A stretch of 46,089 bases of DNA, taken from an uncultured Flavobacteriales bacterium (GTDB lineage Bacteria > Bacteroidota > Bacteroidia > Flavobacteriales_G > Salibacteraceae). Where the stretch lies: NCBI GenBank assembly GCA_937899835.1, contig CALCCE010000261.1, forward strand, positions 1 through 46,089. Reading direction: 5' to 3'. How positions within the stretch are numbered: the stretch's first letter is position 1; each line of letters opens with the position of its first letter. Shown here piece by piece: positions 8,696 to 45,958 of the stretch. A model generated the notes under the pieces. That model was given only the letters and a program-made list of their open reading frames with translations, made no database searches and was not told the origin of the DNA. Position numbers and translations under genes: made by a program.

Positions 8696-9253
8696 GTGGG
8701 AATTTTAAGACAACTGGCCTATCAACCTGCTTCGAGCGAAAGCCGCCTGGTGAAAGCTTGTAGAGCAGGTAACCGGCGGGCACAGCGAACGCTTTACGAT
8801 CAATACAAGGTGGCCATGTTTACCCTGGCCATGCGTTTGCTCAACCATCGGGAAGAGGCCGAAGATGCCCTCCAGGAGGGGTTTGTTAAGGTGTTTAAAA
8901 GCATCGACTCTTTTCGGGAAGAAAGCAGTCTGGGCGCATGGATCAAGACCATTGTTACCCGAACCTGCATCAGCCGCTTGAAAAAACGGCTGCGCCTTCA
9001 GGAACAAACAATGGAGGGTATAGAGGTTTCCGTCAATTGGGACGCCAACCTCACCGGCGAAGTGCTTCAACGTGCCATCGCAGCCCTACCCGATGGCTAC
9101 CGTACCGTCTTTGTAATGGTGGAGATCGAAGGCTACAGCCATCAGGAGGTAGCCGATCTGTTGGAGGTATCGGTGGTGACCTCCCGTTCTCAATTGTTTC
9201 ACGCCAAGCGCAAGCTACAACAAGCATTGCGTGGTTATTACTACTCCTCATGA
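8696..9253 (+). CDS. ECF (sigma-70 family) RNA polymerase sigma factor, operon 1
   Basis: A 185-residue extracytoplasmic-function sigma factor. Region 2 spans about residues 20-95 (LYDQYKVAMFTLAMRLLNHREEAEDALQEGFVKVF, then SLGAWIKTIVTRTCISRLKKR), and region 4 about 120-178 (ALPDGYRTVFVMVEIEGYSHQEVADLLEVS, then the recognition helix SRSQLFHAKRKLQ). The start is GTG; no in-frame ATG precedes region 2. It shares the 4-nt ATGA overlap with the anti-sigma-like gene. Downstream genes encode envelope proteins, so the trigger is probably an envelope signal. A paralogue with the same gene context lies at 37.5 kb. Confidence 0.9.
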   Translation: MGILRQLAYQPASSESRLVKACRAGNRRAQRTLYDQYKVAMFTLAMRLLNHREEAEDALQEGFVKVFKSIDSFREESSLGAWIKTIVTRTCISRLKKRLRLQEQTMEGIEVSVNWDANLTGEVLQRAIAALPDGYRTVFVMVEIEGYSHQEVADLLEVSVVTSRSQLFHAKRKLQQALRGYYYSS

Positions 9254-9843
9254 AGGTTTCAGATTCCAATTGGCAACGTGCGCTCCGGCAACTTCCAGAG
9301 CAACTTCCCAGCGATAAGGTCTGGGAGGCCATCGAACAAGAACTGGACGAACAAGCCGTAAACGATCAATCATCGTACGAAACAGTACTGGCCGACCTGC
9401 CGGAATGGGAGCCCTCCGAAAAGACTTGGAGCAACATTACTACCGAATTGCCCAAGCGCCCTGGAACCTTTTGGTGGCGATCGGCAGCAGCTATTGCCCT
9501 GATTTGCGCCACAGCAGCCAGTGCGTGGTGGTGGCAAGGGCCCCAGGAAGCAGCTACCCTCTCCTATTCACATGAAGACACCCAGGTAGCTCCGATGGTA
9601 ATGAATGACCAGCCGATGCTCGATCCATTGGTGGCCGAAAGCCTCAACAACGAGCACTTACTCAAAGATCGGCCGGAACTGGCCAGCCTGAAAATACAAC
9701 TTCAAGAATTGGATGCCGCCATGGCAGAACTCAACAACAGTCCCTTTGCACTGCAAGACCCACAAATTCAGTTGCAGCAAGCCCGAATCCAACGCCTGAA
9801 GGCGGAGGTTATCAAAAAAATGGTTCAACTCTTACTCGCATAA
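9250..9843 (+). CDS. Single-pass anti-sigma-like membrane protein
   Basis: A 197-residue protein starting at the ATG that overlaps the sigma stop. The cytoplasmic N-terminal part (residues 1-75) has two related segments, LRQLPEQLPSDKVWEAIEQEL and LADLPEWEPSEKTWSNITTEL, which form an internal duplication. Residues 76-95 are a Trp-flanked transmembrane helix (FWWRSAAAIALICATAASAWWW). The periplasmic remainder is helical and Gln/Leu-rich, probably a coiled coil. No zinc-binding HxxxCxxC motif is seen, so it is not a classic ZAS anti-sigma factor. The coupling to the sigma gene and the topology suggest it sequesters the sigma factor. Confidence 0.7.
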   Translation: MKVSDSNWQRALRQLPEQLPSDKVWEAIEQELDEQAVNDQSSYETVLADLPEWEPSEKTWSNITTELPKRPGTFWWRSAAAIALICATAASAWWWQGPQEAATLSYSHEDTQVAPMVMNDQPMLDPLVAESLNNEHLLKDRPELASLKIQLQELDAAMAELNNSPFALQDPQIQLQQARIQRLKAEVIKKMVQLLLA

Positions 9844-43134: not shown

Positions 43135-43164
43135 TTGCCAATGCAAAAGAGTTCCCTAAATTTG
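43135..43164 (+). promoter_or_regulatory. Consensus promoter with no protein gene downstream
   Basis: TTG (43135-43137), 19-nt spacer and TAAATTTG (43157-43164): the same perfect consensus as the hup promoter. No plus-strand protein gene follows; the neighbouring WYL gene is antisense. A dyad TGAC-GAATTT-GTCA (43166-43179) covers the expected start site. Confidence 0.7.
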
Positions 43165-43165
43165 G

Positions 43166-43345
43166 TGACGAATTTGTCATTGGTCTAATGACTGAAATCC
43201 CAAGTAGGTCAGATCAAGGATAAACAGATGGTGGATTTACTGCCTGCGGGCAGGCCGGCCCCCCAAAGTTTGAATACGAGGGTTTTGCATATTTTACCTT
43301 GGTTCTAACTGGTCGGCCAGCCCGCAGGCGGTTTTGTTTTATATC
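43166..43345 (+). ncRNA. Candidate non-coding RNA, about 170 nt
   Basis: Predicted from a consensus promoter to a large hairpin plus T-rich tail. Near the 5' end is a hairpin GTCATT-ggtct-AATGAC (43176-43192), extendable by ATTT/AAAT. The 3' half is a long inverted repeat (43242-43260 with 43311-43329) with a 50-nt loop, followed by GGTTTTGTTTTA. The loop contains TGGTTCTAAC, which is also present in the second RNA candidate at 44.6 kb. There is no plausible reading frame. The 3' end abuts or slightly overlaps the WYL gene stop (43339) on the other strand. Confidence 0.5.
43242..43329. repeat. 19-bp GC-rich inverted repeat (REP-like)
   Basis: The arm at 43242-43260 (GCCTGCGGGCAGGCCGGCC) and the complementary arm at 43311-43329 differ at two positions. 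They enclose 50 nt of AT-rich DNA. GC-rich palindromes of this composition occur as dispersed REP-like elements in several Bacteroidota. It ends 9 bp past the WYL stop, so it might also stop that gene's transcript. Confidence 0.7.
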
Positions 43346-44367
43346 GACTGGTCGTATTGTCTCAGCGACTTTTTCAATCTTTTCAACACCTCTTTTTTTA
43401 ACGACTCTGGTTGTATAACCTGCGCTTCCGTTCCCATGCCAAGAATTTGCATAATGAGTTCATAGGTGATGAGCACGTGCATTTCGATTTTGAACTCAGT
43501 ATCGGTATCGACCAGTATTTTTTGGGAATGGTGCAAGGGTTGCGTTTTCAGGTACTTGCCCTGTAAGGGTGTACACGCCAAGATAACCTCCTCTGGTTCT
43601 CCAGAATGTGCAGTGATACCAATGCTGTATTTAAAATAACGGTCAGCATCGAAGTCTTTTGGTAATTCAAATCGGTGATCGACGGTATCTACCCGATGCA
43701 TCCGATCCAAACCAAAGGTGAGTATCATCTCCCGTTCGTGGTGGAAACCAATGAGGTACCACCGGTTTCGGTACTCCTTTAGGAGGTAAGGGTCGATACG
43801 ATAGGACTTTATTTCGGTTCGGGAGAATGAGCCATAGTCTACTTCAAGCTGTTGGCGCTCTTTGATGGCATGCAACAAAGTGCCCAAGAACTGATTGCCT
43901 TCTACCTGCCCTACCGTTTCGAATTGAACAAACTTTTCGATGGCTTCATCTTCAACATTAGAAGTAATGTTCAGCCGATCGAAAATCTTTTCGATCGCAA
44001 AGCCAAATTGACGAAACACCTCTACATCCTTAAACTGAAACAAGGTGGTAGCGGCAAAACGAATGGCCTCAACATCGTCATCATTGAGCGGAATTCGATC
44101 GATGCTGTAATCTTCGTCCAAATAGTAATACCCTTTATCGCGCTTGCTGAACCGGATTGGGGCCTCAAACCCCAGTTCTGATTCATACCGCATGGCCCAC
44201 AGGTCTTTTTCGATCGTAGAATCTGAAATTCGGTCTCCCAGGCTTCCATAAAGCGCCTCTTCACAGGCTTGCCGCAATTCCTCTTTGGAGGGATAAGGCT
44301 TGTATTTGTTCCGAATGCATTTATCAATAATACGGTAGCGCAACAACGCATACTTATTCGCAGGCAT
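43339..44367 (-). CDS. WYL-domain transcriptional regulator
   Basis: A 342-residue regulator. Residues of about 1-90 contain an HTH-like helical part (NKYALLRYRIIDKCIRNKYKPYPSKEELRQACEEALYG, then SDSTIEKDLWAMRYE); the WYL domain is at about 160-240 (IKERQQLEVDYGSFSRTEIKSYRIDPYLLKEYRNRWYLIGFHHE and ILTFGLDRMHRVD), followed by a C-terminal WCX-like extension. WYL domains bind nucleic acid or nucleotides as effectors. Flanked on both sides by candidate RNAs and close to the two genes with the CAGACCGTAA palindrome, it is the best candidate for the factor that reads that palindrome. Confidence 0.88.
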   Translation of the reverse strand: MPANKYALLRYRIIDKCIRNKYKPYPSKEELRQACEEALYGSLGDRISDSTIEKDLWAMRYESELGFEAPIRFSKRDKGYYYLDEDYSIDRIPLNDDDVEAIRFAATTLFQFKDVEVFRQFGFAIEKIFDRLNITSNVEDEAIEKFVQFETVGQVEGNQFLGTLLHAIKERQQLEVDYGSFSRTEIKSYRIDPYLLKEYRNRWYLIGFHHEREMILTFGLDRMHRVDTVDHRFELPKDFDADRYFKYSIGITAHSGEPEEVILACTPLQGKYLKTQPLHHSQKILVDTDTEFKIEMHVLITYELIMQILGMGTEAQVIQPESLKKEVLKRLKKSLRQYDQSI

Positions 44368-44594
44368 AGGGTCGAGAGTTGAGGGTGACTAAAATAAGGA
44401 ATTCCCTACGGGCCTCTTCTTCTTCAGACTGTTCCTACTTTGAGTAACACACGGGAAATCGGCAAAAAAATCAAAAAATGAGTAGCCCTATACAATGGTC
44501 CATTAATACTCTGTTTACTAATCATTTACATAAAAATGACACTTTATTTAGTGATAAATTGATCTCATTATTCGGAAAAATTTCTGGAAAGGGT

Positions 44595-44624
44595 TTGGAG
44601 ATATGGAAAAAGGGCGTATCTTTG
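44595..44624 (+). promoter_or_regulatory. Consensus promoter of the 85-nt RNA candidate
   Basis: TTG (44595-44597), 19-nt spacer, TATCTTTG (44617-44624): a perfect match to TTG-N19-TAnnTTTG. The predicted start near 44629-44630 coincides with the foot of the first hairpin of the RNA. Confidence 0.75.
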
Positions 44625-44628
44625 ATTC

Positions 44629-44715
44629 ACTTTTATTGGGGTTAATAGTAAAAGTCTCTGGTTCTAACAGACCAGAAAAGAGGGTCCGCACTTCCTACGC
44701 GGACCCTTTTCTATT
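44629..44715 (+). ncRNA. Candidate small RNA of three hairpins, about 85 nt
   Basis: Three consecutive hairpins fill the interval between the promoter and the T-tail. Hairpin 1: ACTTTTATT (44629-44637) with AGTAAAAGT (44647-44655). Hairpin 2: TCTGGTT (44657-44663) with GACCAGA (44670-44676). Hairpin 3, an intrinsic terminator: a 12-bp stem around GGGTCCGC/GCGGACCC (44678-44689 with 44699-44710), then CTATTTTATA. A plus-strand frame of 74 codons runs through the terminator and is not credible. The downstream SiaB-like gene has its own promoter at 44784, so this is more likely a free RNA than a leader. Confidence 0.6.
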
Positions 44716-44783
44716 TTATAAACTTTGGTTTCCTCAGTTCCTCCGAAAAGCGCCACTCATGGCCTTCATTAGCAACATTCAGT

Positions 44784-44812
44784 TTGCATTTTCCAAAATA
44801 TCCTTATCTTTT
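44784..44812 (+). promoter_or_regulatory. Near-consensus promoter of the SiaB-like gene
   Basis: TTG (44784-44786), 18-nt spacer and TATCTTTT (44805-44812), one base from the -7 consensus. It gives a leader of about 45 nt before the ATG at 44864. Confidence 0.5.
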
Positions 44813-44863
44813 CTTCGCGATTGCTAACGGGTCATCGGGAGAGGTCCGAACTTGCACTTCTTC

Positions 44864-45958
44864 ATGGATATTGAGTCCACCTTACGCTTCTACAAACAGC
44901 TCGAAGGAGATGACCTGAGTTTTATTTACCAGGGAAACTTCAACGATGACATTACCAATCGAGTAATCGATCTGAGTGAACGTAATATGGATAGCCAGGG
45001 TCAACATACCCGCATTATCCATCGCGTTTCCTTTCTCTTGGCAGAGTGCTTCCAGAACATTGTTCGTTACGGAGAAGAAGGTCATCAGGATCTGGACAAC
45101 GATACCAACGGTATATTTCTCACGCGACACGTTGGGTCCAAGTACTACATCATCTCCGGTAACCTCATTCTTCACGAAAAGGTAGATGAGCTGACTAAGC
45201 GTCTGGACGACATCAATACCATGGGCAAAGACGAGCTTAAAAAGCTTTATCTACAGGTATTGTCTGGTGGTGTTTTCTCCGATAAAGGCGGTGCAGGGTT
45301 GGGTCTAATCGAAATGGCGCGAAAGTCAGGTGAGAAGCTGCTTTATGATTTCGAGCGGATCAATGATACCTACGCTTTCTTCTACCTGCAAATCAGCTTA
45401 AAGTCGGACGATGCTCCTTCTCACAAAGCTGTATCGGTAGCCAACTCTCGTGATATTCGAAAGCAAGTTGTGGGTGAGAATATCCTGATGATACATCGGG
45501 GCGATTTCAACCAGGATACTTTTATTCCAGTTTTGCGCATGATCGAAAATAACATGCGCGATAAGTTGGATAAATACAGTTTAAAGCGAATGGTTTATCA
45601 CGTGATGGTAGAATTGTTGCAGAACATTTACCACCACGGCAAAGTAATCGACGATCGTCGAGATGGTATTTTCATCGTTAGTGCGGCTGATTCCCACTAC
45701 CTTATTCAAGCGGGTAATTTCATAGATAACTCTGAAATCGAAGACTTCCAACGACAATTAGAAATAGTGAACCGTTTGGGACGAGATGAACTAAAAGAGC
45801 TCTACAAAAAAACACTGGCAGAAGGAAAAGTAGATGAAGTGAATGGTGCAGGTCTTGGTCTTATTGACATTCGTAGGGACACTACAAATCCATTGGAATT
45901 TACTTTTCTCCCAATTGATGATTCTACCTCCTTCTTTTCTGTTTCGGTTCGTGTTTAG
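44864..45958 (+). CDS. Tandem SiaB-like (DUF6272) ATPase-fold protein
   Basis: A 364-residue cytosolic protein made of two similar halves (about 1-180 and 190-364). Each has a helix like an N-box (AECFQNIVRYG with Glu61 and Asn64; VELLQNIYHHG with Glu250 and Asn254), a strand GIFLTRHVGSKYYIISGN / GIFIVSAADSHYLIQAGN, and a lid-like glycine motif (GGAGLGL 142-148; NGAGLGL 327-333). This is the layout of SiaB-family kinases, which phosphorylate a SiaC-like partner in biofilm signalling. Single-domain SiaB proteins are about half this length. Start at ATG 44864; a TTG four codons earlier is less likely. No phosphatase or partner gene is visible in the remaining 130 bp. Confidence 0.72.
   Translation: MDIESTLRFYKQLEGDDLSFIYQGNFNDDITNRVIDLSERNMDSQGQHTRIIHRVSFLLAECFQNIVRYGEEGHQDLDNDTNGIFLTRHVGSKYYIISGNLILHEKVDELTKRLDDINTMGKDELKKLYLQVLSGGVFSDKGGAGLGLIEMARKSGEKLLYDFERINDTYAFFYLQISLKSDDAPSHKAVSVANSRDIRKQVVGENILMIHRGDFNQDTFIPVLRMIENNMRDKLDKYSLKRMVYHVMVELLQNIYHHGKVIDDRRDGIFIVSAADSHYLIQAGNFIDNSEIEDFQRQLEIVNRLGRDELKELYKKTLAEGKVDEVNGAGLGLIDIRRDTTNPLEFTFLPIDDSTSFFSVSVRV

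Follow-up and report, generated by a model that had tools for sequence, protein, structure and literature searches.

What is transcribed from the 484-base gap that lies between a WYL/WCX-domain regulator gene and a DUF6272 gene, and does the gap hold a gene of its own? The window (the whole stretch of DNA analysed here, 46,089 nucleotides) is contig C261 of a 6.9-Mb source genome in 307 contigs. A sequence-only reading had proposed an unannotated RNA gene in this gap, divergent from the WYL regulator, with a mismatch-free promoter, three back-to-back hairpins at the expected start site and a 12-bp intrinsic terminator. The features that we recovered are collected in Table 1, and the domain matches of the WYL/WCX protein bear out the divergent arrangement. 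On balance, we hold with moderate confidence that the unit is a real RNA gene, i.e., a free-standing small RNA gene under the housekeeping sigma factor.

Table 1. Features in and around the WYL/WCX–DUF6272 gap (positions are those of the window).
Feature	Position	Strand	Evidence or remark
WYL/WCX-domain regulator gene, divergent	43339–44367	−	WYL 1.6e-17, WCX 7.3e-10
Sigma-A type promoter: TTG 44595–44597, N19, TATCTTTG 44617–44624 (about −12 to −5)	44595–44624	+	strict match
Predicted sRNA, about 86 nt	44629–44715	+	deduced from promoter and terminator positions
Hairpin 1: 10 bp, 7-nt loop GGGGTTA, first base at predicted +1	44629–44655	+	fold; z −3.6, 1/300 shuffles as good
Hairpin 2: 7 bp, 6-nt loop	44657–44676	+	fold; z −3.1, 1/300 shuffles as good
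Hairpin 3, predicted intrinsic terminator: 12 bp (one G-T), 9-nt loop	44678–44710	+	z −6.1, 0/300 shuffles
Candidate own promoter of the DUF6272 gene, TTG-N18-TATCTTTT	44784–44812	+	one mismatch
DUF6272 gene, downstream	44852–45958	+	DUF6272 8.2e-73; start TTG 44852 or, more likely, ATG 44864

The promoter matches the Bacteroidota sigma-A consensus TTG-N19-TATCTTTG strictly, as had been claimed. In Flavobacterium psychrophilum the TAnnTTTG box is described at −12 to −5 (PMC9723704), and the same spacing puts the predicted +1 at 44629, which is 4 nt beyond the end of the TATCTTTG box and coincides with the first base of hairpin 1; the hairpins thus begin at the expected start, in accordance with the earlier statement. 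The strict motif occurs four times in the window on both strands together, against 4.1 times in shuffled sequence, so the promoter by itself proves little. Two observations give the site at 44595 more weight. The strict motif marks the stable-RNA genes of this genome, being found 5′ of 9 of 35 tRNA genes (0.2 in shuffles), with TAnnTTTG by itself 5′ of 20 of the 35 (1.7 in shuffles); the set comprises the 36 tRNA genes that ARAGORN gave in the sampled stretches, less one at a contig edge. In addition, among the four strict promoters of the window, the one at 44595 is alone in having a perfect-stem terminator within 250 nt downstream, 54 nt away, in a scan that cannot see imperfect stems such as the hairpin after the promoter at 43135. 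We note that the promoter region itself (44595–44625) spans an imperfect inverted repeat, with 11 pairs including G-U when read as RNA (z −4.4, 0/300 shuffles). Its interpretation as an operator was rejected, because as DNA only 7 of the 11 positions are palindromic by manual count.

Folding reproduces the three hairpins in the back-to-back order proposed earlier, with single nucleotides separating hairpin 1 from hairpin 2 and hairpin 2 from hairpin 3. The body of the predicted RNA (44629–44714) has a minimum free energy (MFE) of −35.1 kcal/mol and a z-score of −5.8, a value that none of 300 dinucleotide shuffles equalled, and hairpins 1 and 2 taken jointly (44626–44677) retain a z-score of −2.9 (4/300 shuffles as good). 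For the larger interval 44595–44730, the plus strand gives −44.0 kcal/mol (z −3.85, 1/200 shuffles as good) and the opposite strand −29.9 (z −2.33, 5/200). These values, together with z-scores of −3 or lower for each hairpin, uphold the claim that the whole interval is structured. Stability alone is not unique to this site, since among 4602 segments of 86 nt sampled from both strands, 11 are no less stably folded than the body. According to the unpaired probabilities, the nucleotides from +1 onward are predicted to be paired within the 10-bp stem of hairpin 1, and folding from the first nucleotide should favour stability.

The stem of hairpin 3 has the properties of the 12-bp intrinsic terminator that had been claimed, with one G-T pair among the 12 and a T-rich tail; it ends in the four bases TTTT, followed by CTATTTTAT. 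It is terminator-like on the minus strand too. A stock terminator scan with loops of 3–8 nt found four sites in the window (2.7 in shuffles) and recovered this stem solely in the minus-strand orientation, the plus-strand hairpin being missed because its 9-nt loop exceeds the limit of 8. A custom perfect-stem scan, with loops of 3–10 nt and a T-rich tail, found six plus-strand and four minus-strand sites in the window, hairpin 3 being among those on the plus strand. No coding gene lies 5′ of hairpin 3 on its strand; a terminator active on the plus strand would therefore serve a transcript begun in the gap.

There is no credible reading frame in 44595–44715. The frames of at least 40 amino acids that cross the candidate interval (55, 74 and 47 amino acids) either share sequence with the promoter or extend across the terminator, and the earlier statement on this point holds. 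A relaxed promoter scan of both strands of 44300–44900 gave a sole further site at 8 or more of 9 positions, the one upstream of the DUF6272 gene. The same scan found no promoter for the WYL gene, and is thus blind to some promoters.

Homologues of the predicted RNA were sought by DNA similarity and by two covariance models, R1 for the whole RNA and R2 without the terminator, each built from a single sequence; the sets of 60, 35, 395 and 297 genomes searched overlap. BLAST found no homologue in 60 genomes: matches with E of 1 or less were present in 41 and, self-matches apart, none exceeded about 38 nt or had an E-value better than 0.026. Among 35 family genomes, R1 matched one, which is the source genome itself, and a second match within this genome (contig C299, E 0.2) is terminator-like only; no paralogue of the candidate RNA was found in its own genome. 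In 395 class genomes, a set sampled from a broader group and scored under tighter filters, R1 gave no homologue and 13 non-self matches with E of 0.2 or less (best 0.0017), such matches being expected given per-genome E-values across 395 genomes. Nine of the 13 were inspected, and every one looks by eye like a strong terminator stem preceded by dissimilar sequence. Genus g84 contributes three of the 13 matches and two of the nine inspected. R2 likewise gave no homologue in 297 genomes, its one further match (E 0.054) having a fold unlike hairpins 1 and 2. A direct search of 38 loci, i.e., 29 from WYL relatives and nine from DUF6272 relatives, returned nothing better than E 0.23. Rfam has no family at gathering threshold in the window, and 10 sub-threshold matches in 44400–44860 are far under their cut-offs and were taken as chance. 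Searches of phages gave only five records, covering 34% of the query at E 0.1, those of plasmids gave none, and viral contigs contain no exact copy of a 20-mer from hairpin 2.

The check for stem conservation that had been suggested was thus run, with single-sequence models, and returned no homologue from genomes that include no other of its genus. The nearest WYL relatives share about 50% protein identity, and with no congener among the genomes searched, the absence of homologues is weak evidence: a lineage-restricted RNA, looked for with single-sequence models among such distant relatives, would look exactly like this.

Three other explanations were weighed. The interval could belong to the DUF6272 mRNA as its 5′ leader, hairpin 3 being an attenuator that lets transcription through in certain circumstances, since the gene starts 142–154 nt past the hairpin-3 terminator on the same strand with no gene between. 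This arrangement would ordinarily call for a mutually exclusive antiterminator fold, and none was found; when the terminator arms are barred from pairing, hairpin 1 persists, hairpin 2 is one pair shorter and no other structure forms in place of the terminator (−14.1 versus −36.0 kcal/mol), so that the usual attenuator design is absent. A factor-driven switch at the terminator, by a protein or peptide instead of an antiterminator fold, would still be compatible with this result. The DUF6272 gene has a promoter candidate of its own, and the 600 nt upstream of its relatives (18 loci, taken from the 48 other genomes that gave a match) contain a perfect-stem terminator in 1/18, a strict promoter in 1/18 and both in 0/18. 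Nor does any Rfam family reach its gathering score, Thr_leader on this strand scoring 16.6 bits against a cut-off of 55. We regard a leader as improbable, and a free-standing sRNA as likelier because of the separate promoter candidate for DUF6272 and the lack of an antiterminator fold. Alternatively, hairpin 3 might serve as a terminator-like stem in both directions, keeping the two divergent genes insulated from each other, next to a chance promoter match that yields at most a useless short transcript. The chance frequency of the promoter motif in the window, the terminator-like character of the stem on both strands and the conservation not found in the genomes searched all fit such a non-functional element. 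However, hairpins 1 and 2 each beat nearly all of their shuffles, hairpin 1 begins exactly at the predicted +1, and neither divergent gene transcribes into the stem, so there is no evident need for insulation; we consider this account unlikely, if somewhat less so than the leader.

The same slot in relatives suggests a further origin. WYL relatives are present in 51 of 80 genomes, and the best 30 loci were compared, that of the window plus 29 from as many other genomes, which we take as orthologues, each being its genome's best match. In 12 of these 29 (L058, L060, L066, L068, L069, L073–L078 and L080, comprising all 11 compared g10 loci and one of g4), a tRNA-Arg(acg) gene is divergent from the WYL relative, and in all 12 it has a TAnnTTTG box shortly upstream and a terminator shortly downstream. 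Seven of the 12 carry a tRNA-Arg(tcg) further on. The candidate could accordingly be a relic of such a unit, with the promoter and terminator kept and the tRNA body decayed or lost, an idea in keeping with the location of this genome's own tRNA-Arg(acg) elsewhere (contig C151) and with the best R1 match among the WYL loci, which covers part of tRNA-Arg(tcg) and its terminator in L073. That match, at E 0.23, is at chance level, however, and the best local score of the body against tRNAs is 17, where shuffles average 17.2 with a 95th percentile of 20 (the comparison set being the ARAGORN tRNAs from 30 stretches of this genome and the tRNA-Arg of two relatives). Neither ARAGORN nor the Rfam tRNA model finds a cloverleaf in the candidate; the body is well folded and not decayed, and the other 17 of the 29 loci have no tRNA at the slot, which is therefore not stable. 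A relic is in our estimation very improbable. Synteny is all that is claimed for the tRNA-Arg(acg) at this slot; a replacement of one unit by the other would need closer genomes to be recognised.

The free-standing small RNA gene thus remains the preferred reading. In favour of independent transcription stand the promoter, the start at hairpin 1, the terminator, the lack of a credible frame and the separate DUF6272 promoter candidate; conserved stems in relatives, which the original proposal had named as a test, were not found in the genomes searched. The candidate is probably a lineage-restricted orphan sRNA. RNA polymerase would start at about 44629 and make an RNA of about 86 nt, folded from the first nucleotide onward into three hairpins, before stopping at the intrinsic terminator near 44710–44717. 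The 5′ stem may guard the RNA from decay, and the exposed loops of 7, 6 and 9 nt might let it act in trans, by loop-to-mRNA pairing or by protein binding; we put forward pairing of the loops with mRNAs only tentatively. Naive duplex energies single out no target among 31 start regions (30 genes of the window, DUF6272 with two starts): by whole RNA the order is the gene at 8938–9843, DUF6272 (ATG start) and WYL, with 7, 26 and 31 of 200 shuffles as good, uncorrected for 31 tests, and by loop energy WYL is tied for third. If a chaperone is needed, the candidate would be the one RRM_1 protein found in this genome, since a search for Hfq gave no match there.

A second candidate RNA unit lies near the 3′ end of the WYL gene (43135–43341, plus strand) and is present in a single copy in the genome. 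It has a strict promoter, TTG-N19-TAAATTTG (43135–43164, plus strand), and a long imperfect hairpin (43239–43332) followed by the T-rich tail TTTGTTTT, and its fold over 43160–43340 has a z-score of −4.9 (0/200 shuffles as good). Both candidates contain the 10-mer TGGTTCTAAC on the plus strand, at 43300–43309 and 44659–44668, a match noticed after the fact; a shared word of that length turns up in only 29 of 2000 shuffled pairs. The genome holds 12 copies of TGGTTCTAAC (20 of the reversed control word), and a genome-wide seed family was rejected, because nine of the ten other copies are inside stop-free frames of at least 100 codons; no TAnnTTTG box lies within 250 nt upstream of the tenth. 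We give little credence to the idea that the WYL gene, flanked by two opposite-strand RNA units sharing TGGTTCTAAC, forms one circuit with them, e.g., through RNA ligands or a shared DNA site. In the literature on WYL proteins and sRNAs, the titles and abstract openings among the matches listed report no direct link.

For B. thetaiotaomicron, 27 of 49 high-confidence intergenic sRNAs are given as strain-specific (PMC7366714), and the present candidate therefore changes no general view by itself. If real, it would be one more orphan, lineage-restricted sRNA beside the few described in Bacteroidota, and the slot adjacent to the regulator would be occupied by a tRNA gene in one lineage and by another kind of small RNA in a second. 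We regard the candidate as plausible and rather ordinary.

The architecture of the candidate can be compared with several known systems. Like the tRNA-Arg(ACG) unit beside WYL in relatives, it has the same position, orientation, kind of promoter box and a terminator, but it contains no tRNA and has no similarity to the tRNAs compared. The RNA I type antisense RNAs of ColE1 plasmids are short and have three stem-loops with small loops; the likeness to the candidate is one of shape only, no antisense partner transcript or replication origin having been identified here. The independent RNAs of F. psychrophilum, including Rfp18, are described as short independent transcripts of a bacterium whose main promoter box is TAnnTTTG (PMC9723704), the box that the candidate has. 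Rfp18 has several stem-loops, the third being the predicted pairing region, and it is reported as genus-conserved with measured effects on proteases, whereas the candidate is known from its sequence alone and is likened to it by description (PMC9723704). GibS and FopS of Bacteroides thetaiotaomicron (PMC7366714, PMC11697453) are likewise intergenic, with their own promoter and an intrinsic terminator, in a host that has an RRM-1 protein and lacks an obvious Hfq; RRM_1 is the domain of RbpB, described as a global RNA binder of Bacteroides (PMC11697453). GibS of B. thetaiotaomicron is reported to pair with mRNAs, in an account that notes no obvious Hfq or ProQ (PMC7366714). By description, GibS is about 145 nt long with a long, single-stranded, conserved 5′ seed (PMC7366714), whereas the candidate is about 86 nt and folded from base 1; a single-stranded 5′ seed of the GibS/FopS type is absent, the bases from +1 onward lying in the predicted 10-bp stem. 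In the same account, a high-confidence intergenic sRNA is one with a start site and an intrinsic terminator (PMC7366714), and the candidate, whose start is a predicted one, shares with that class a sigma-A promoter (by sequence match only), a terminator and an intergenic, non-coding location.
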